Positions 23,192 to 30,885 of a stretch of 64,000 nt of DNA are shown here, piece after piece (the first letter of the stretch is position 1; each line of letters begins with the position of its first letter). Source of the stretch: Amycolatopsis viridis (GTDB lineage: Bacteria; Actinomycetota; Actinomycetes; Mycobacteriales; Pseudonocardiaceae); the NCBI RefSeq assembly GCF_011758765.1, contig NZ_JAANOU010000001.1, forward strand, positions 1,488,001 through 1,552,000, read 5' to 3'. The notes under the pieces are model-generated. The model worked only from the letters and a program-made list of their open reading frames with translations. It was not told the origin of the DNA and searched no databases. Both the position numbers and the translations under genes were made by a program.

Positions 23192-24526
23192 GTGGTAGCC
23201 CGGCTGATCATCGCCGCGCCCGCGTCGGGGCACGGCAAGACGACGGTCGCCACCGGGCTCATGGCCGCACTGCGCGCCCGGGGGCTCGCCGTCTCCGGGC
23301 ACAAGGTCGGGCCGGACTTCATCGATCCCGGCTACCACGCCCTCGCCACCGGGCGGCCACCGCGCAACCTCGACCCGTTCCTGCAAGGGGAGGACCGGCT
23401 GGTCCCGCTGCTGCGGCACGGGGCCGCGGGTGCGGACATCGCGGTGATCGAGGGCGTGATGGGCCTGTTCGACGGGCAGCTCGGCACCGCGGGGTACGCC
23501 TCGACCGCGCACGTCGCGCGGCTCCTCGGTGCGCCGGTGGTGCTGGTGGTGGACGCGAGCGCGGCGAGCCGGAGCGTCGCCGCGACGGTGCTCGGGTTCG
23601 CCCGCTACGAACCCGGGGTGGAGATCGCCGGCGTGATCCTCAACAAGCTGGGCTCGCCGCGGCACGAGGAGGAGATCCGCGCGGCGCTGGTGCGGACCGG
23701 GATCCCGGTGCTCGGCGCGTTGCGGCGCAGCGACGACATCCACGCGCCGGGCCGTCACCTGGGGCTGGTACCGGCGGCCGAGCGGGACGCCGAGTCGCGG
23801 GAGCTGCTGCCGAAGCTGGCGGCGTGGGTGGCCGACGGGGTGGACCTGGCGGCGGTCGTGCGGGTGGCCCGGTCGGCTCCCGCGCTGACCGCTCCCGCGT
23901 GGGAGCCGGCCGGGTCGTACTCGGGGCCGCGGCGGGTGGTCGCGGCGGCCGCGGGACCGGCGTTCACGTTCCGCTACACCGAGACGGCCGAGCTGCTCGC
24001 CGCGTCCGGAGTCGACGTGGTCGACCTGGACCCGTTGCGCGACAAGGCATTACCCGAGGGTTGTGCCGGGTTGTACTTCGGCGGCGGGTTCCCCGAGGTG
24101 CACGTGGAGGACCTTTCGGCGAACGCGCCGCTGCGCGCGGAACTGGCCGCGGCGATCCGGCGCGGCATGCCGGTGGTGGCCGAATGCGCCGGGCTGCTGT
24201 ACCTGTGCCGGGAACTGGACGGGCTGCCGATGGTGGGGGCGCTGGACGCGTCGGCGGTGATGACGCGGCGCGGCGCGCTCGGCTACCGCACCGCGGTCGC
24301 GCCCGGGCCGAACCTGCTGGCCGAGGCCGGGCACCAGGTCACCGGGCACGAATTCCACCGGACGGAGGTGACGCCGCGGGCCGGTGCGCCGGCGGCGTGG
24401 ACCTGGGACGGGGCCCCGGACGGGTTCGCGTCGCGCACGCTGCACGCGTCTTACCTGCACGTGCACTGGGCCGGGCATCCCGTGCTGGCGCAGCGGTTCG
24501 CGGCGGCGGTGCACGCGCATGGCTGA
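23192..24526 (+). CDS. cobB: Cobyrinate / hydrogenobyrinate a,c-diamide synthase CobB
   Basis: A 444-aa CobB/CbiA ATP- and glutamine-dependent amidase that amidates the a and c acetates of the ring. N-terminal dethiobiotin-synthetase-like domain with P-loop APASGHGKTTVATGL and KVGPDFIDPGYH; C-terminal class I glutamine amidotransferase domain with nucleophile Cys in VVAECAGLLYL and LYFGGGFPEVH. GTG start at 23192. The stop overlaps cobC by 8 bp. Confidence 0.95.
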   Translation: MVARLIIAAPASGHGKTTVATGLMAALRARGLAVSGHKVGPDFIDPGYHALATGRPPRNLDPFLQGEDRLVPLLRHGAAGADIAVIEGVMGLFDGQLGTAGYASTAHVARLLGAPVVLVVDASAASRSVAATVLGFARYEPGVEIAGVILNKLGSPRHEEEIRAALVRTGIPVLGALRRSDDIHAPGRHLGLVPAAERDAESRELLPKLAAWVADGVDLAAVVRVARSAPALTAPAWEPAGSYSGPRRVVAAAAGPAFTFRYTETAELLAASGVDVVDLDPLRDKALPEGCAGLYFGGGFPEVHVEDLSANAPLRAELAAAIRRGMPVVAECAGLLYLCRELDGLPMVGALDASAVMTRRGALGYRTAVAPGPNLLAEAGHQVTGHEFHRTEVTPRAGAPAAWTWDGAPDGFASRTLHASYLHVHWAGHPVLAQRFAAAVHAHG

Positions 24527-25538
24527 CTACGACCTGCACCACCACGGGGATCGGGAGGTGGGGGACGGGCTGACCGACCTGGCGGTGAACGTCCGGTTGC
24601 CCGCGCCGCCGGCCTGGTTGCGCGCGGAACTGGTGGCGGCGCTGGACGAGCTGGCCGCGTACCCCTCGGCGGAGGCGGCCAGGGAGGCGGTCGCCGCGCG
24701 GCACGGCCGCGACACGTCGGACGTGCTGGTGACGGCGGGCGCGGCCGAGGCGTTCACCTTGCTGGCCACGGCGTTGCGGCCGCGGCGCGCGGTGGTGGTG
24801 CACCCGCAGTTCACCGAGCCGGAAGCGGCGTTGCGCGCGGCCGGGCACGAGGTGGAGCGGGTGGTGCTGTCCGCTGCGGATGGTTTCGTGCTGAGACCGG
24901 TGCCCGCGGACGCCGATCTGGTGTTCGTCGGCAATCCCACCAACCCGACTTCCGTGCTTCACCCGGCCGCAGCGCTGCGTGCGCTGGCCCGGCCGGGGCG
25001 GATCCTGGTGGTGGACGAGGCGTTCCTGGACGCGGTGCCCGGTGAGCCGGAAAGCCTGGCGGGGGAACGGTTGCCGGGCGTCGTGGTGATCCGGAGCCTG
25101 ACGAAGACCTGGGGGATCGCCGGGCTGCGCGCGGGATACGTGCTGGCCGAGCCGCCGGTGGTGGCGGCTCTGCGGGCCGTGCAACCGCCGTGGTCGGTGT
25201 CCACGCTCGCCGCGCGCGCCGTGGTGGCGTGCTCCCGGCCCTCGGCACTCGACGAGGCGGACAAGCTGGCCGCGCGCGCCGAGCAGGACCGCGAGTACCT
25301 GGTGGCCGGGCTGCGCGCGCTGGGCGTCGAGGTCGCCGGCGAGCCGCGGGGCCCGTTCGTGCTGGTGCGGATCCCCGGCGCGGCCGCGTTGCGCCTGCGG
25401 TTGCGGGAGGCCGGCTATGCCGTCCGGAGAGGCGACACGTTCCCCGGCCTGGACGGCGACTGGCTGCGCATCGCGGTCCGGGACCGCGAGGTGACGGACG
25501 GCTTCCTGGCGGTCCTGGAGCCTCGGCTGAACGGGTGA
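24519..25538 (+). CDS. cobC: CobC-like PLP aminotransferase-fold enzyme
   Basis: A 339-aa fold-type I PLP enzyme resembling CobC/CobD L-threonine-O-3-phosphate decarboxylase-type proteins (Rv2231c-like), which supply the aminopropanol arm of the nucleotide loop. GNPTNPTSVL, VVDEAFLDAVPGE and the PLP lysine in SLTKTWGIAGLRAGY are visible, with the phosphate-binding Arg near RIAVRDRE at the C-terminus. ATG 24519 overlaps cobB by 8 bp. It ends this operon; the unrelated Crp-cyclase cassette begins 51 bp on. Confidence 0.9.
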   Translation: MADYDLHHHGDREVGDGLTDLAVNVRLPAPPAWLRAELVAALDELAAYPSAEAAREAVAARHGRDTSDVLVTAGAAEAFTLLATALRPRRAVVVHPQFTEPEAALRAAGHEVERVVLSAADGFVLRPVPADADLVFVGNPTNPTSVLHPAAALRALARPGRILVVDEAFLDAVPGEPESLAGERLPGVVVIRSLTKTWGIAGLRAGYVLAEPPVVAALRAVQPPWSVSTLAARAVVACSRPSALDEADKLAARAEQDREYLVAGLRALGVEVAGEPRGPFVLVRIPGAAALRLRLREAGYAVRRGDTFPGLDGDWLRIAVRDREVTDGFLAVLEPRLNG

Positions 25539-25589: not shown

Positions 25590-26255
25590 GTGATCTTGTC
25601 CAACGTTCTACGTGGGTTCCGGGCTCTGATCGGCGAACGCCTGTGGGACGCACTTGTCTCCGAGGGCGCGACGCGCAGCTTCCCGTCCGGATCCTTCCTG
25701 TTGCGGCAGGGCGACCCCGGCGGTTCGGTGCTCGTGCTCCTGCGTGGCCGGGTGCAGGTCACCGGCCACGACCAGCAGGGCGCGGAACTCCTCGTCTCGT
25801 TGCGGGCCGGCGGTGACCTGGTCGGAGAGATCGCGGGTGTGCCGCAGATGACGCGGACGGCGAGCGTGCAGGCGATCGACCACTGCACCGCCCAGGTGCT
25901 CACCGCCGAGAAGTTCCGTGACTTCCTGAAGCGGAACCGGATCGACGGGCACTTCACCGACTACCTCCTCGGGAAGCTGTCCGAGACCGTGCCCTACCAG
26001 ATGCAACTCGTGCACTTCACCGCACGGCGGCGGCTTGCCCGGCTCATGCTGGAGCTGGTCGTGCTCGCCGACCCGGGTCACCCGGACCGCATGCGCGTGC
26101 CGTTTTCGCAGGAGAGCCTCGCCCGTGCGCTGGGGTTGTCACGCAGCACGGTCGCCGAGCAGATCGCGGCGCTGCGCGAGCTGGGAGCACTCACTGCCGG
26201 ACGGCGGCTCGTGGTGGCCGACCTCGACAAGCTGGCCGGCAGCGCCGGCTTGTGA
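25590..26255 (+). CDS. Crp/Fnr-family transcriptional regulator with intact cNMP pocket
   Basis: A 221-aa regulator. The N-terminal cyclic-nucleotide-binding domain contains a good phosphate-binding cassette, GEIAGVPQMTRTASV (Glu80, Arg89, Thr90), matching the GE...RTA pattern of cNMP-binding members; a dimerisation helix follows, then a Crp-type winged helix, FSQESLARALGLSRSTVAEQ. No Fnr cysteines. Start taken as GTG 25590; TTG 25596 is also possible and neither has a clear Shine-Dalgarno. It lies 51 bp after cobC and 108 bp before a cyclase-like gene, and probably senses that enzyme's product or regulates its operon (inference). Confidence 0.9.
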   Translation: MILSNVLRGFRALIGERLWDALVSEGATRSFPSGSFLLRQGDPGGSVLVLLRGRVQVTGHDQQGAELLVSLRAGGDLVGEIAGVPQMTRTASVQAIDHCTAQVLTAEKFRDFLKRNRIDGHFTDYLLGKLSETVPYQMQLVHFTARRRLARLMLELVVLADPGHPDRMRVPFSQESLARALGLSRSTVAEQIAALRELGALTAGRRLVVADLDKLAGSAGL

Positions 26256-26273
26256 TGGTCGTCACCCGTGGAA

Positions 26274-26291
26274 TTGTCCGGTGCCGGACAA
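26274..26291. promoter_or_regulatory. 18-bp palindromic operator candidate
   Basis: TTGTCCGG-TG-CCGGACAA is a perfect inverted repeat with a 2-bp centre, between the Crp-like gene and the cyclase-like gene and 72 bp before the latter's start. Position and symmetry suit a dimeric regulator such as the upstream Crp homologue, although it is not the classical TGTGA-N6-TCACA. No T-tract follows, and 8-bp arms with a 2-base loop make a poor terminator. Confidence 0.55.
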
Positions 26292-26363
26292 CTCCGCGGA
26301 CGCGGTTCGGTGATCGTCGTGATCGCGCCGCACACCCCGGGTGCGGGCGGAAAGGCGATCACG

Positions 26364-27200
26364 ATGACCAAGCACGACCACGTCGAAGCTCTGCCGCCGT
26401 ATCGAGCGCTGCTCGTGGTGGACATCCGGCACTTCAGCGGGCGGCGCGGCCGGTTCCACGCGGAGCTGACCGACGCTGTGCCGCAGATCCTGGCGCAGGC
26501 GTTCCAGCGTGCCGGGCTGGACAGGATGTGGCGGGAGCACAAGTTCGGTGCGACGACCGGTGACGGCTACGTGGCGGGGTTCCCGGCCGAGGAGCTGCCG
26601 TTCCTGCTCAACCCGTTCCTGCCCGCGCTGCAGGAGGAACTGGAGTACCGCAACACCGTGGGCTGGCGTGCGGCCGGCGACGAGCCGTTGCGCATGCGGG
26701 TCAGCGTCAACGTCGGCCCGATGACGGACTCGGGCGGGAAAGCGCTGTCCGAGGGCAGCGGTGCGTCCCGGGTGGAGAACCACCGCCTGCTCGACTCGGA
26801 CCCGGTGCGGGACCTGCTCACCCGCTCGGGAAAACCGACCTGCGTGGCCGCGATCGTGTCCGACCGGGCGTTCGCCGACGCCGTCGCCACCGGCTACACC
26901 GCCGAGGACGAAGACCTGTACGTGCGGGTGCCGGTGGACCAGAAGACCTACCACGGCACGGCTTACCTGCGCGTGCCCCAACCTTCGGGTGACCTGCTGA
27001 ACCGCGGCTTCCGTGCGGAGGCGGACATCGACGACGAGCCGACCACGCAGGAGGCCGCACCGGTCAACTCGACCGTGATCCACCAGGCGAGCGGCCCGGT
27101 GCACACCGGTTCCGGCAACCAATTCCACGGGGACGGGCAGAACATCATGGGCTACAACAGCGGCAGCATCCAGCAGTCCTTCGGAGGGCGTGATCGATGA
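26364..27200 (+). CDS. Class III nucleotide-cyclase-like protein with C-terminal RHIM-like motif
   Basis: A 278-aa protein. Residues 14-180 look like a class III nucleotidyl cyclase domain: LLVVDIRHFSG holds the first metal Asp (Asp20) and GATTGDGYVAGFP the second (Asp67); RVSVNVGPM and GASRVENHRLLDS are in the place of the late cyclase strands, but the usual VNxAxR is degenerate, so product and activity are uncertain. A linker (about 215-240) leads to a Gly/Ser/Gln-rich tail with VHTGSGNQF (246-254), which fits RHIM/amyloid-motif spacing and is shared with the next protein. ATG 26364 has GGAAAGG about 7 bases upstream; stop overlaps the next gene by 4 bp. Confidence 0.72.
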   Translation: MTKHDHVEALPPYRALLVVDIRHFSGRRGRFHAELTDAVPQILAQAFQRAGLDRMWREHKFGATTGDGYVAGFPAEELPFLLNPFLPALQEELEYRNTVGWRAAGDEPLRMRVSVNVGPMTDSGGKALSEGSGASRVENHRLLDSDPVRDLLTRSGKPTCVAAIVSDRAFADAVATGYTAEDEDLYVRVPVDQKTYHGTAYLRVPQPSGDLLNRGFRAEADIDDEPTTQEAAPVNSTVIHQASGPVHTGSGNQFHGDGQNIMGYNSGSIQQSFGGRDR

Positions 27201-29110
27201 CGGCGCCGGTGAACCAGACCGAGATCGCGGACGTGCGCGGTTCGGTGCACAGCGGCAGCGGTGATCAGATCGACAACTCCACCCATTACTACCAGTTCCT
27301 CCGCCTGGTGCGAGACGATCCGGTGCCGGCGGCGCGCCGGCCGATCACCGCCGGCGATCTGCGCTGGCTGCGGATCAGGTTCGAGCCCCCACCCGGGTTC
27401 GACAAGGCGGAGCGGGTGGTGACGGGCGGGGTCGTGGTCCTCAGCGGTCCGACCGGGTCGGGACGGGAGACCGCCGCCCGGATGCTGCTGTGCCCGGAGG
27501 GAGAGGAGGACAACGAGATCCACGAAATCGACATCGAGGCGGGCGCCGCTGCGGCCCTGGGGGACGTCGAAGCCGCAGATCGGCTCCTGGTCAACCTCTC
27601 CGATCTGGACCGGTGGACTTTCCACGGCTACCACCGGGAGTTGCGTTCCCTGGCGGCGGCGGTGGAGCAGAGCGGGGCGCGGCTGGCTGTCGTGATCAAC
27701 CAGGTGCAGGAGGCGTGGCTCACCGACGAACTGCGGCGGCGGGTCGTGCCGCTGGGGCGGCCAGGTGCCGTTCCCGTGGTGCTCACCCATCTCGCCGCCG
27801 CCGGGATCGACCTGCCCCCCGATGGCGTCGATCGGGCGGCCGGAGAAGTCCTCGAGGCGGCCGCGATGAGCGAGCTGGCACGGGTGGCGTACCTGGTCGT
27901 CGCGGAGAGCGAGAACAGGCGCGGCGCGGCGGCGGACTGGCTGGCCGCGGCCGTCGAGGCGATCCGGGGCTATCCGGGGGAACTGGGGCAACTGCTGGAC
28001 CGGCATCGTGACGGCCGGCAGCGGGCTCTGCTGTTCGCCGCGACCGCGTTCGCCGGCGCGCGGCTGGACACCGTGGCTGTCGCGGAGCGGACGCTGCTCG
28101 GGCTGATCGGCTTTCCGGAACCGGAGCAGCACTGGCTCGAACACGACGGGGTCGTGGGGCGGCTCGGGCGGCTCGGCGCCGAGGTGGCCGATCGGCGGGT
28201 GGGGTTCGGGCGCATCGGTTATGCGGACGCGGTTTTTGGCCGGCTGTGGGACGAATACGCCGGCCTGCACGAGGACCTCGAGCGCTGGATCGCGGACACG
28301 GTGGTGACGCCGCCTCTGGCGGACGACGAGCGGCGTCTTGCCGGCGACCGGCTCGGTGACCAGTTGCTGCGCAGCCGCGACGGTCGGTCGGTCGGTCGGG
28401 TCGCGCGGAGCTGGGCCACGCAGCCCCGGAGCGAGGTCCGGGTGCTCGCGTACCGGTTGCTGGCCCGCGCGGCGGTCGATCAGCACGTTGGGCGGGCAAT
28501 GCGGAGACAGCTGTACGAGTGGGCGGAGGATCCCTCGCTGCCCGCCCGGCTCGCCCACATGATCCTCGCGGTGTGCGAGCGGGTGCTGACGCACACCCAC
28601 CCGGACGTCGCGATCGTGCGGCTGCGCCTGCTGACCCTGCATTCCGCACCGGCGGTCAGCGCCGCCGCCCGGGAGGTCCTGGTCCGCCTGGCCGACGACG
28701 CGCGGCTGTCCCGGCGGATCCTCGCCGCCCTCGCGAAGTCGAGCAGGATCGATCACGCACTCTTCGCGGTGCTCGCGGCACCGCACCGGGTCGATCACCA
28801 CCCGTGGACCCGGGCACGGCTGATCGAGTGCTGGCGGGCAGCCCTGAACGACCGTGCTGTGGAGCAATGGTCACCGCTGGTTCAGGCGTGGCTCGCGGAG
28901 GCCGGGACGCGGGCGGATCTTCTCGATGTCCTGGCCGCGGCGGCCGGTGACGACGAGGCCCGGGCAGCGCGGCTGTTCGTGGTGGCCCGGGACTGGGCGC
29001 GCCGGGCCGACGGTGGGGCGGCCGTGTTCGCCGCCCTGCGGGACCGGATCGACCGGCAACAGGGCGTGGCCGAGTGGTGGGACGACGGAAGAACGGAGCT
29101 CTCGCGATGA
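27197..29110 (+). CDS. P-loop-derived helical-repeat protein with N-terminal RHIM-like motif
   Basis: A 637-aa protein of no named family. Residues 10-30 carry VHSGSGDQI (17-25), the counterpart of the tail motif of the preceding protein. Then a NTPase-like core: GPTGSGRET (84-92) in Walker A position, but with Arg for the usual Lys and Glu for Ser/Thr, and a hydrophobic strand ADRLLVNLSDLD resembling Walker B. From about 260 on it is an Ala/Arg/Leu-rich array of helices, HEAT-like in appearance, to the C-terminus. No membrane segment. Read with the upstream cyclase-like gene (4-bp ATGA overlap) and the downstream membrane gene (4-bp overlap), it looks like the adaptor or effector of a signalling cassette (inference). 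Confidence 0.7.
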   Translation: MTAPVNQTEIADVRGSVHSGSGDQIDNSTHYYQFLRLVRDDPVPAARRPITAGDLRWLRIRFEPPPGFDKAERVVTGGVVVLSGPTGSGRETAARMLLCPEGEEDNEIHEIDIEAGAAAALGDVEAADRLLVNLSDLDRWTFHGYHRELRSLAAAVEQSGARLAVVINQVQEAWLTDELRRRVVPLGRPGAVPVVLTHLAAAGIDLPPDGVDRAAGEVLEAAAMSELARVAYLVVAESENRRGAAADWLAAAVEAIRGYPGELGQLLDRHRDGRQRALLFAATAFAGARLDTVAVAERTLLGLIGFPEPEQHWLEHDGVVGRLGRLGAEVADRRVGFGRIGYADAVFGRLWDEYAGLHEDLERWIADTVVTPPLADDERRLAGDRLGDQLLRSRDGRSVGRVARSWATQPRSEVRVLAYRLLARAAVDQHVGRAMRRQLYEWAEDPSLPARLAHMILAVCERVLTHTHPDVAIVRLRLLTLHSAPAVSAAAREVLVRLADDARLSRRILAALAKSSRIDHALFAVLAAPHRVDHHPWTRARLIECWRAALNDRAVEQWSPLVQAWLAEAGTRADLLDVLAAAAGDDEARAARLFVVARDWARRADGGAAVFAALRDRIDRQQGVAEWWDDGRTELSR

Positions 29111-30093
29111 ACAACCGGACGGTGGTCTCGGCAGGACTGGCAGTGGCGGCACTCCTGATCGTGTCCGCGCTACTGGGCGGGTGGGTCGCACTCGTCGTGG
29201 TGATCGTGCTGCTCGGCATCGGCGGTGTCGCGCTGGCTGCGGCCTACTCGCGGCCGCGGATCGCGCCGCCCGCACCGGCGCCGGCGGTGATGAGCGCCGA
29301 GTACGAGATCAGTGCGGAGCCGCTGCAGACGGCCGACCCGGACTACCGCGCCTTCTTCTCGGCTCAGGTGCACTGCCAGTTCACTGCCGGTCCGGGGGCG
29401 CGGGATGCCGCGAGCTGGGCGGTGCGGAGCATCCGTGACCGCGCCGCCGACATCGTGGCTCGCTACCAGCCGGAAGACCTGGCACAGGCCCAGCGCGACC
29501 TCGCGGTCGCGGTGGGGCAGGCGCTGGGGGACAGCGCGTCCCGCTGGGCGTGGGCCACACAAGTGACGCTGACTTTGTCCGACGACGACCGCGAGCTCGT
29601 GCAGCGCCGCATCGAATTGCGCAAGAAGGTCCGGCAATGGGAGGACGAGCGCGCGCTGGAGAAGGCTTTGCGTGCCTACCTCCGCGACGACGCGCTCGCG
29701 ACTCCCAGCGACGCCCTGATCTGGTGGCTGGCACAGAACCAGGACCGGGTCGAGGACGCGGTGCGGATGCGCGGTACGTTCGCGCTGCTGTCGTCCGCGG
29801 TGCACGAGTCCGCGGTCTCCCCGTACTTCGCGGGCCTCGCGGCAGAGGCGGAACCGTCGGACGACCGGCAGCAAGCCGAGGCTGTCCGGGACGACCGGCC
29901 CAGTTCGCCCGCCGATCTCGCCGACCGGTTCGTGCGGGCACTCCACCCGGCGACGGAGGAGAAGCCGGAGCGTGAGCTGCTCCGGGACCGGCTGGCGTCC
30001 TTGATGGTCCGGGCCGGGCGGCCGGACCTCGCCGGTTCGCTGCGGGACCTGGGGGAGGGCGACGTGCCGGACAACGTCACCGCGTTGCGGTGA
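29107..30093 (+). CDS. Membrane-anchored protein of the cyclase cassette
   Basis: A 328-aa protein with two N-terminal transmembrane helices (about 7-24 and 27-46, joined by a Gly-Gly turn), then a cytoplasmic or periplasmic domain: strand-rich about 60-100 (AEYEISAEPLQTADPDYRAFFSAQV), a helical charged region about 160-200 (DDDRELVQRRIELRKKVRQWEDERA, possible coiled coil), and an acidic C-terminal part. The layout faintly recalls SPFH/band-7 or other oligomeric membrane proteins but I recognise no family. ATG 29107 overlaps the preceding stop by 4 bp, so it is part of the cassette and may be its membrane effector (inference). Confidence 0.68.
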   Translation: MNNRTVVSAGLAVAALLIVSALLGGWVALVVVIVLLGIGGVALAAAYSRPRIAPPAPAPAVMSAEYEISAEPLQTADPDYRAFFSAQVHCQFTAGPGARDAASWAVRSIRDRAADIVARYQPEDLAQAQRDLAVAVGQALGDSASRWAWATQVTLTLSDDDRELVQRRIELRKKVRQWEDERALEKALRAYLRDDALATPSDALIWWLAQNQDRVEDAVRMRGTFALLSSAVHESAVSPYFAGLAAEAEPSDDRQQAEAVRDDRPSSPADLADRFVRALHPATEEKPERELLRDRLASLMVRAGRPDLAGSLRDLGEGDVPDNVTALR

Positions 30094-30096
30094 GCC

Positions 30097-30130
30097 GCGG
30101 GGAGGCCGGTCGGGTGAGCGGTCTCCCCGC
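30097..30130. terminator. Hairpin between the cassette and cobS
   Basis: GCGGGGAG at 30097-30104 pairs with CTCCCCGC at 30123-30130 across an 18-base loop that can itself fold. It sits between converging genes and touches the cobS stop codon. Confidence 0.5.
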
Positions 30131-30885
30131 TACGGCGCGAGGGCCAGCCAGGCCGCCGCGGCGGCGAACTCCACGCCGGCGCCGAGGACGTCCCCGGTGA
30201 TGCCGCCCAGCCGGGCGGTGCACCGCCACACCACGACGCCCGCGGCGAGGAAGGCCGCGGCGACCGCGACCGGGCCGCGCCACCACGGTAGGCCGGGGGC
30301 GAGCGTGGCCAGTCCGGCGGCGACGCCGCACGTGAGGATTGTCCACAGGAGACGAACGCTGCCGGCCACGGTCGCGCCCAGGCCCTCCGGCCGCGCCGAG
30401 GGCACGCCGCGGGTGCAGCACAGCGCCAGCACCCACCGGCCGAGCAGCGTGCCCGCGAAGGCGGCGGTGACCCCGTGACCGGCGCCGATCGCGCCCGCTA
30501 GCGCTCCACATTGGACGATCAGCACGAGCACGAGCGTGGCGACGCCGGTGGGGCCCGAATCGCCCCGGCGCATGATGTCCAGTGCCCGGGTGCGGTCGAA
30601 CGAGGCGCCGAGGCCGTCCGCGGTGTCGGCGAGCCCGTCGAGGTGCAGGCCGCGGCTGGCCAGGCCCACCGCGCCGACGGCGAGCCCGGCCACGGCGACC
30701 GCCGGTAACCGCAGGGCGTCTCCGGCGAGGACCACCACCCCGGCGAGCACCGCGAGCGGAACCGCTGCCAGCGGGGCCAGCAGCATGGCTCCGGCGGCGA
30801 CCCGGCGGTCGATGACGCGCGGGGCCGGGGTCGGGAGCGCGGTGAGGGTGCCCACGGCCATCCGCAGCGCGTCGCCGGTCAGCAT
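30130..30885 (-). CDS. cobS: Adenosylcobinamide-GDP ribazoletransferase CobS
   Basis: A 251-aa polytopic membrane enzyme that joins alpha-ribazole to adenosylcobinamide-GDP, the last step of the nucleotide loop. The conserved HLDGLADTADGLG motif with catalytic Asp residues is at about 80-92, followed by MRRGDSGPTGVATL; several hydrophobic helices follow. ATG 30885, 9 bp beyond the cobT stop on the same strand, so cobU-cobT-cobS form one leftward operon. Confidence 0.95.
   Translation of the reverse strand: MLTGDALRMAVGTLTALPTPAPRVIDRRVAAGAMLLAPLAAVPLAVLAGVVVLAGDALRLPAVAVAGLAVGAVGLASRGLHLDGLADTADGLGASFDRTRALDIMRRGDSGPTGVATLVLVLIVQCGALAGAIGAGHGVTAAFAGTLLGRWVLALCCTRGVPSARPEGLGATVAGSVRLLWTILTCGVAAGLATLAPGLPWWRGPVAVAAAFLAAGVVVWRCTARLGGITGDVLGAGVEFAAAAAWLALAP

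Follow-up and report, generated by a model that had tools for sequence, protein, structure and literature searches.

We analyzed a 64,000-nucleotide stretch (the window) of contig NZ_JAANOU010000001.1 from the soil bacterium Amycolatopsis viridis and found a four-gene cassette that probably encodes an inducible signaling module connecting an NLR-like protein to a nucleotide cyclase. The genes specify a Crp/Fnr regulator, a class III cyclase-like protein, a STAND/NLR-like protein, and a fourth protein. The C-terminal tail of the cyclase and the N-terminal head of the STAND protein share a Gly/Asn/Thr/Gln-rich motif, which lies in disordered ends, varies from locus to locus, and is matched within each locus. 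By analogy, this layout appears to be that of bacterial amyloid-signaling pairs. A first-pass annotation of the window had suggested a nucleotide-signaling or conflict module, a view that is supported by the cyclase fold, the STAND-like partner, the exchange of the cyclase for TIR proteins, and the presence of PycTM neighbors in related loci. The matched motif, the presumed operator, and the TIR exchange go beyond that annotation.

Matching of cyclase tails and STAND heads

The motif was first noticed in the window by reading the open reading frames (ORFs): the cyclase ends with GPVHTGSGNQ, and the STAND protein starts with GSVHSGSGDQ. For a systematic comparison, 126 effector-STAND pairs were collected (92 cyclase and 34 TIR rows, many loci being present twice). 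One pair without a usable head was dropped, removal of exact duplicates left 96, and 85 representatives with less than 75% STAND identity were retained, comprising 69 cyclase and 16 TIR pairs. The TIR rows were labeled by their N-terminal signature, with a Pfam test in three. Local alignment of the tails with the heads gave a mean score of 74.4 for matched pairs versus 33.9 for permuted ones (standard deviation, 1.18; maximum, 39.6; 10,000 permutations); the corresponding z-score is not a strict probability because the pairs are related, some more closely than others. The true partner ranked first for 39 of the 85 tails and among the top three for 59, and the pair from the window scored 65 and ranked second. 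The gap was smaller for the 16 TIR pairs alone, at 65.4 versus 43.1 (permuted maximum, 57.6). Controls that paired the effector core with the head, the tail with the STAND body, or the core with the body stayed at the mean of their permutations; with shuffled tails, the score was 28. Two examples illustrate the matching: in locus L038, the tail GPVNTGTQGNVQTGSGQQ goes with the head GPVNTGSQGNVQTGSGQQ, and in L042, DVGGTVITAPDGPVQTGDGQQI goes with DVGGTVITAPSGPTQTGDGQQI.

In 70 pairs, the motif segments had a median length of 29 amino acids and contained 20% Gly, 10% Asn, and 9% Thr, with Leu at 1.5% versus 11% in the core. Identical residues at 70 loci were encoded by the same codon in 737 of 1,217 cases, compared with 636.5 expected. 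Since this excess is slight, the matching is at the protein level rather than mainly the result of recent DNA copying, and recent DNA-level duplication was rejected as its sole cause. By eye, GSGNQF...GQNI of the window resembles the pattern GSGDQF...TQNI of a fungal sigma-motif peptide that is given in Table 2 of PMC8086366. An amyloid nature of the motif is suggested by its layout and composition.

A RHIM-like core, [VI]Q-x-G, was present in 30 of the 85 tails and in 3 of the 85 heads. Being so rare in heads, it does not account for what most pairs share, and it was rejected as the pairing motif; as a second element of the tail, it may possibly serve a second interaction partner. Cyclase relatives without an adjoining STAND match were seen at L140-L146, L150-L154, L158, L159, L163, and L166. 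Those that were read (all but L146) mostly end in a RHIM-like tail, e.g., GTAIQVGHLHGG, although that of L158 does not. In L143, a neighbor on the opposite strand begins with a similar GVVLQAG head. L043 (4488-8435 and 8466-9356) encodes an NB-ARC/TPR protein with the head GPVIQAGTINGD two genes before a cyclase with the tail GTAIQVGHLHGG; beside these genes, on the other strand, lies a gene for TIR plus NPCBM. At L049:6891-9612, there is a resemblance between the cyclase tail (GGRTFSTQTGDLNLSG) and the head (GGTAISTQTGDVNISF) of a 476-amino-acid protein, and a PycTM gene follows; this protein, which has no convincing Pfam domain, is perhaps another type of sensor. EAD2 was matched in 1 of 20 cyclase relatives (2.9e-19). 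The table of matches lacks the locus name, and L050:6818-7849 was taken as the carrier from its long C-terminal extension; if it is, the EAD would occupy the position of the short motif.

Exchange of the cyclase for TIR proteins

In other families of the class, the place ahead of the same STAND and fourth genes is taken by a TIR protein, whose tail is again matched. TIR_2 was above the cut-off in all three proteins tested, and an HTH_31 regulator was found ahead in the one case tested. The effector label requires three changes on a STAND tree that was built by a quick method from 65 rows; two of them are forced by starred branches.

Accompanying regulators were counted at the 72 cyclase loci whose upstream sequence was long enough and at 17 TIR loci. 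A Crp gene on the same strand was found at 67 of the 72 cyclase loci and a divergent one at four more (L120, L123, L130, and L139), with none in L170 and none at the 17 TIR loci. Conversely, an XRE-type signature was present at 11 of the 17 TIR loci and at 0 of the 72 cyclase loci. As Crp goes with the cyclase and the XRE type with TIR, the regulator changes along with the enzyme. Cyclase plus Crp being exchanged for TIR on the same chassis, the cyclase occupies the effector slot.

PycTM-like neighbors of related cyclases

On a plasmid of Streptomyces sp. NBC_00055, a relative is preceded by a Crp gene and by one with the annotation "Pycsar system effector family protein." Pfam PycTM was above the cut-off near three cyclase relatives (the NBC_00055 plasmid, L048, and L049) and just under it in L130 (26.3 versus 27.2), and L139 gave no match to it. 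When 126 cyclase rows, repeats included, were scanned with a model of our own that was built from the sequences of these five loci, 20 distinct loci proved to have a PycTM-like gene (15 of 52, 1 of 31, and 5 of 43 rows in the three sets, the last with one repeat of L037); four of the 20 belong to the training set, and many stretches are too short to show the gene. Most of these genes lie less than 1 kb from the cyclase and are divergent from crp, two are farther away (1.6 and 3.2 kb), and all are within about 3.3 kb. None was found in the 34 TIR-type rows.

The cyclase-like protein

Gene 2 had no Pfam or PADLOC match. Its AlphaFold2 (AF2) model reached a mean pLDDT (predicted local distance difference test score) of 86.1, all 50 listed VIA matches of this model were nucleotide cyclases, as were the listed Foldseek rows, and the Foldseek matches included the PycC structures 8jsz and 8jsf. 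The protein is therefore predicted to have a class III catalytic-domain fold, as had been claimed. Both metal-binding Asp residues, also noted before, are conserved among 114 distinct cyclase cores (D20 in 114 and D67 in 112), and so are R141 (112) and K194 (113). Its product would be a cyclic mononucleotide (cNMP).

Crp and its presumed operator

The best Protein Data Bank (PDB) matches of the Crp protein were Crp/Fnr-family regulators, and its DNA-binding domain is a Crp-type winged helix-turn-helix. The retained cNMP phosphate cassette was borne out: in an alignment with PDB Crp/Fnr chains, Glu80 is present in all 82 Crp proteins found beside a cyclase, and Arg89 is present in 81. The recognition helix carries a Ser in 71 of the 82, at the position where CRP has Glu.

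Of 80 distinct regions between crp and cyclase, which include relatives and are not independent, 45 contain the exact dyad TGTCC-N6-GGACA; the top dyad in 20 shuffles reached at most 2. Its commonest position is 21 nucleotides after the crp stop codon. The spacing is that of the CRP site TGTGA-N6-TCACA, which has a 5-6-5 geometry. The full dyad was absent upstream of the effector at all 17 TIR loci. The genome of A. viridis contains nine exact sites, compared with none for the reversed pattern, and only that of the cassette lies outside a called gene. A genome-wide Crp regulon was rejected, eight of the nine sites being inside called genes, and so was an operator upstream of crp, where no dyad stood clearly above shuffles (5 versus up to 4). 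Crp would thus act through this putative operator as a local regulator dedicated to this operon.

The STAND protein and the fourth protein

The AF2 model of gene 3, built with 58 sequences, reached a mean pLDDT of 90.6. Its parts, assigned from the secondary structure of the model, are a disordered head (residues 1 to 25), an alpha/beta P-loop part, a winged-helix-like part (about 245 to 340), and helical repeats up to about residue 625. nSTAND3 was matched in 9 of 15 family members at an E value of 0.1, and the protein of the window fell below the Pfam cut-off. Foldseek returned matches with weak E values: 8bob, a maltose regulator complex, was the first row, and Dark, NLRC4, and the phage sensor Avs4 were in the top 14, in a list that also holds RuvB, RFC, and HEAT-repeat proteins. 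Chain C of 8bob is the STAND protein MalT. AAA+ proteins lead the VIA list, which mainly covers the NTPase part and includes the AVAST5 filament (9nc9), a STAND-type defense entry. Of 58 STAND rows, 52 retain the Walker B Asp. We read gene 3 from its model as STAND/NLR-like, with a predicted P-loop NTPase followed by a winged helix and superhelical repeats; the earlier description as a degenerate P-loop and helical protein agrees with the Arg in Walker A and with the modeled helical repeats.

Family-model scans of gene 4 gave nothing above the cut-off. In the window, its two hydrophobic N-terminal helices were judged by eye, and across the family they were assessed by a simple hydropathy count. 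The proposed two-helix membrane protein holds for the window but not as a family trait: such helices are present in 26 of 59 fourth genes beside cyclases and absent from 32, and a constant two-helix membrane effector was rejected.

Organization, genomic site, and distribution

The four ORFs have the order, the two 4-bp overlaps, and the 108-bp gap that had been described for them. Both overlaps read ATGA, at 27197-27200 between cyclase and STAND and at 29107-29110 between STAND and gene 4, and the gap separates crp from the ATG of the cyclase. A mechanical ORF list begins gene 2 at GTG 26268. The alternative ATG at 26364 is the likely start, since homologues begin nearby and the conserved operator occupies 26274-26291.

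Table 1. Coordinates of the cassette, its elements, and its flanking genes in the window
Feature	Position	Strand	Remarks
crp	25590-26255	+	Crp/Fnr regulator; Pfam cNMP_binding (3.3e-17) and HTH_Crp_2 (6.7e-13), both over cut-off
Operator-like palindrome TTGTCCGGTGCCGGACAA	26274-26291	.	Core TGTCC-N6-GGACA; between crp and cyclase
Gene 2, class III nucleotide cyclase-like	26364-27200	+	Core about 11-215; disordered tail about 225-278
Cyclase C-terminal motif VNSTVIHQASGPVHTGSGNQ	27063-27128	+	Matches head of next protein; pLDDT about 50
Gene 3, STAND/NLR-like	27197-29110	+	P-loop NTPase, winged-helix-like part, helical repeats (predicted)
STAND N-terminal motif VNQTEIADVRGSVHSGSGDQ	27209-27268	+	Partner of cyclase tail; residues 1-20, pLDDT about 47
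Degenerate Walker A GPTGSGRET	27446-27472	+	Arg replaces usual Lys
Gene 4	29107-30093	+	Two N-terminal hydrophobic helices and conserved soluble part; family found behind STAND gene
cobC (flanking, outside cassette)	24519-25538	+	Name from first-pass annotation
cobS (flanking, outside cassette)	30130-30885	-	Name from first-pass annotation

The names cobC and cobS are those of the first-pass annotation. The cobS gene was found in all 19 same-genus genomes. Three of the 19 have the cassette adjoining it, and in three others the two cobalamin genes abut with no cassette, which confirms the proposed insert and provides the suggested comparison with genomes in which the genes are adjacent. The junction is a recurrent insertion site; in L193, L194, and L199, which are other same-genus genomes, it holds a different gene that begins like a membrane transporter. 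The cassette is an accessory insert, being patchy at the cob site of the genus and having no cob homologues in 18 neighborhoods outside it. A cobalamin-linked regulatory operon, placed by its function between cobC and cobS, is favored by position alone and is highly improbable. Homologues of the flanking genes occur in only 2 of 20 neighborhoods, both from the same genus, and the cassette sits at the cob site in only 3 of the 19 same-genus genomes; a cobalamin-linked function was rejected on these counts.

Matches to the cyclase of the window were found in 26 of 100 related genomes (E value of 1e-3) and, at an E value of 1e-15, in 117 of 390 genomes and 24 of 46 genera of the family. At the latter threshold, the STAND profile matched 49 of 394 genomes and 18 of 138 genera of the class. 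Among 20 neighborhoods fetched around the best cyclase matches across Actinomycetes, 14 have crp, cyclase, STAND, and the fourth gene on one strand, so the gene order is conserved well outside this strain. A search of genome contigs identified Amycolatopsis tucumanensis as a same-genus carrier with one locus, and five plasmid records, from Streptomyces and Embleya, contain relatives. Variants were also seen: L128 and L129 have a second cyclase copy ahead of crp, the fourth gene is duplicated in these two and in L042, and L165 has the cyclase and the fourth gene without a STAND match. On a Streptomyces plasmid (L223:5768-9268), an IS701-family transposase gene appears to split the STAND gene, and the cyclase tail and STAND head are still matched.

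Proposed mechanism and alternative explanations

A mechanism that would accommodate these features begins with a trigger sensed by the STAND repeats, upon which the STAND protein would oligomerize. The exposed N-terminal motifs would then nucleate a homotypic assembly, probably amyloid-like with a beta-arch, and recruit the cyclase tails. Crowded cyclases could form active dimers and produce a cNMP. This would bind Crp and so feed back on the operon of cyclase, STAND, and fourth gene, which has the presumed Crp operator directly ahead of it. In some loci, the cNMP may also bind PycTM or the fourth, often membrane-anchored protein, resulting in growth arrest or cell death. A role in defense, possibly against phages, is suggested by these parts. 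The most specific form of this proposal is plausible but falls short of probable: prion-like templating would activate a synthase of a noncanonical cNMP, read by the Crp autoregulator and by membrane effectors, as a hybrid of amyloid signaling and Pycsar in which effector and regulator are exchanged together (cyclase plus Crp for TIR, often with XRE) and the STAND protein and the variable pairing motif stay constant.

Several results weigh against the signaling module as proposed. No amyloid-type model (sigma or RHIM) was matched in a Pfam scan of ten tails and heads, so that the amyloid assignment is based on layout and composition. PADLOC gave no match for genes 2 to 4, and genes 1 to 4 of the window include neither a Pfam PycTM match nor a gene for a cNMP-binding effector. 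The full four-gene order was missing in 6 of the 20 fetched neighborhoods, and none of the phage records matched the cyclase. In the cyclase, the position that is Lys in Ma1120 (the base-selecting Lys of class III cyclases), read from sequence, is variable over the 114 cores. The genome of A. viridis holds three ordinary class III cyclases, to which the cyclase profile had no significant match; they were rejected as templates for this reason. The Walker A Lys is absent in the window, with Arg in 41 of 58 aligned rows and Lys in one (L112). The exact operator is missing in 35 of the 80 intergenic regions, 13 of which keep the shorter GTCC-N6-GGAC. Finally, the base-contact position of Crp, placed by alignment with PDB chains that have Asn there, is Val134 in the window and Val in 49 of the 82 proteins. 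The base-reading residues named in the available part of PMC11224242 are Ser128 of Escherichia coli CRP and Asn143 of PycTIR. Given the Val at this position, the ligand of Crp may not be cyclic AMP.

The same wiring would result if the motif were an ordinary short homotypic adaptor, such as a beta-strand zipper or beta-arch dimer, rather than a self-templating amyloid; the module would then work like the EAD-coupled systems of Kaur et al. (2020), a peptide motif taking the place of the EAD. In the accessible text of PMC7159879, EADs are described as coupling adaptors that work in pairs and connect signal-making domains with core proteins; one of the 20 cyclase relatives has EAD2, and the tails match no Pfam amyloid model. 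We nonetheless consider a plain adaptor rather unlikely, because disordered, Leu-poor segments rich in Gly, Asn, Thr, and Gln with a median of 29 amino acids, placed at the C-terminal and N-terminal ends of neighboring proteins, are as in bacterial amyloid signaling sequences (BASS) according to the portions of PMC7889193 and PMC8086366 at hand. The cyclase-fold protein could instead be catalytically dead, a nucleotide-binding or scaffold subunit in a regulatory module whose Crp senses a cNMP from elsewhere. Conservation of the metal Asp residues, R141, and K194, each kept in 112 or more of the 114 sequences, the presence of a Crp with an intact cassette beside the cyclase and not beside TIR, and the Pycsar effectors near related loci make this improbable, even though the base-selecting Lys position is variable, the genome has three ordinary class III cyclases, and several vWA-fused cyclase domains are catalytically inactive in the part of Kaur et al. 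(PMC7159879) available.

A strict Pycsar system, in which PycC acts together with a cNMP-gated PycTM or PycTIR, is more doubtful still. The comparison with Pycsar made in the first-pass annotation holds for related loci, with PycTM above the Pfam cut-off near three relatives and PycTM-like genes at 20 distinct loci, and PycC structures are among the Foldseek matches. It fails in the window, where PADLOC PycC models did not match the cyclase even at an E value of 1, there is no cNMP-binding effector, and the only cNMP-binding domain found sits on a DNA-binding regulator; moreover, the sections of PMC11224242 consulted give Pycsar neither a STAND partner nor a matched motif.

If the NLR-to-cyclase module is real, it joins two separately known immune logics, amyloid-type NLR signaling and cNMP signaling, and amyloid signaling gains an amplifying enzyme and an output at the level of transcription. 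The matched motifs would offer up to 85 naturally occurring pairing tags, some of them alike, for studying the specificity of templated signaling. For microbial NLR cascades, the biological role of NLR-like signalosomes in bacteria is a major blind spot according to a 2021 review (PMC7889193), in the part seen. The exchange of TIR and cyclase on one chassis, regulator included, makes this role testable by swaps.

Comparison with known systems

The closest known systems are BASS NLR-effector gene pairs, EAD-coupled systems, and Pycsar. The regulator itself resembles CRP/GlxR in its cNMP_binding and HTH_Crp_2 domains, its phosphate cassette, and a presumed operator with the 5-6-5 geometry of CRP. 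It differs by the half-site TGTCC, the Val at the base contact, a single intergenic target in its own genome, and the helix Ser in place of the Glu of CRP.

With Pycsar, the cassette has in common a cyclase of class III fold, a cNMP-binding fold nearby, and, at 20 distinct related loci, PycTM-like genes in the vicinity. However, its cNMP-binding domain is borne by Crp, it includes a STAND protein and a matched motif, and it has no PycTM in the window. As both a PycC match and a cNMP-binding effector are missing there, it was not classed as Pycsar. In the EAD-coupled VMAP/iSTAND systems of Kaur et al. (2020 and 2021; PMC7159879 and PMC8195603, as far as these texts were available), the signal is made by either a cNMP cyclase or TIR, paired adaptors link these signal makers to a STAND or VMAP core, CRP-like regulators are sometimes linked, and iSTAND2 cores infrequently have a linked cyclase. 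The adaptor of the cassette is a variable short motif, whereas the EAD is globular.

The likeness to BASS pairs extends to adjacent or overlapping genes, a short motif shared by the effector C terminus and the NLR N terminus, a common occurrence in actinobacteria, and TIR as a known effector, all as given in the available parts of PMC7889193 and PMC8086366. These parts name no cyclase, and our literature search found none described in amyloid-signaling pairs, although the founding paper on these pairs, Dyrka et al. (2020), was outside this search and may mention one. In contrast to those pairs, the cassette has a cyclase as its effector, accompanied by a cNMP-type regulator and an operator of its own, the motif of the window has no Pfam match, and the STAND protein is nSTAND3-like with a degenerate Walker A. 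The cassette is best classed as a variant that would work like a BASS-type signalosome with a cyclase as its effector, and not as a Pycsar system.

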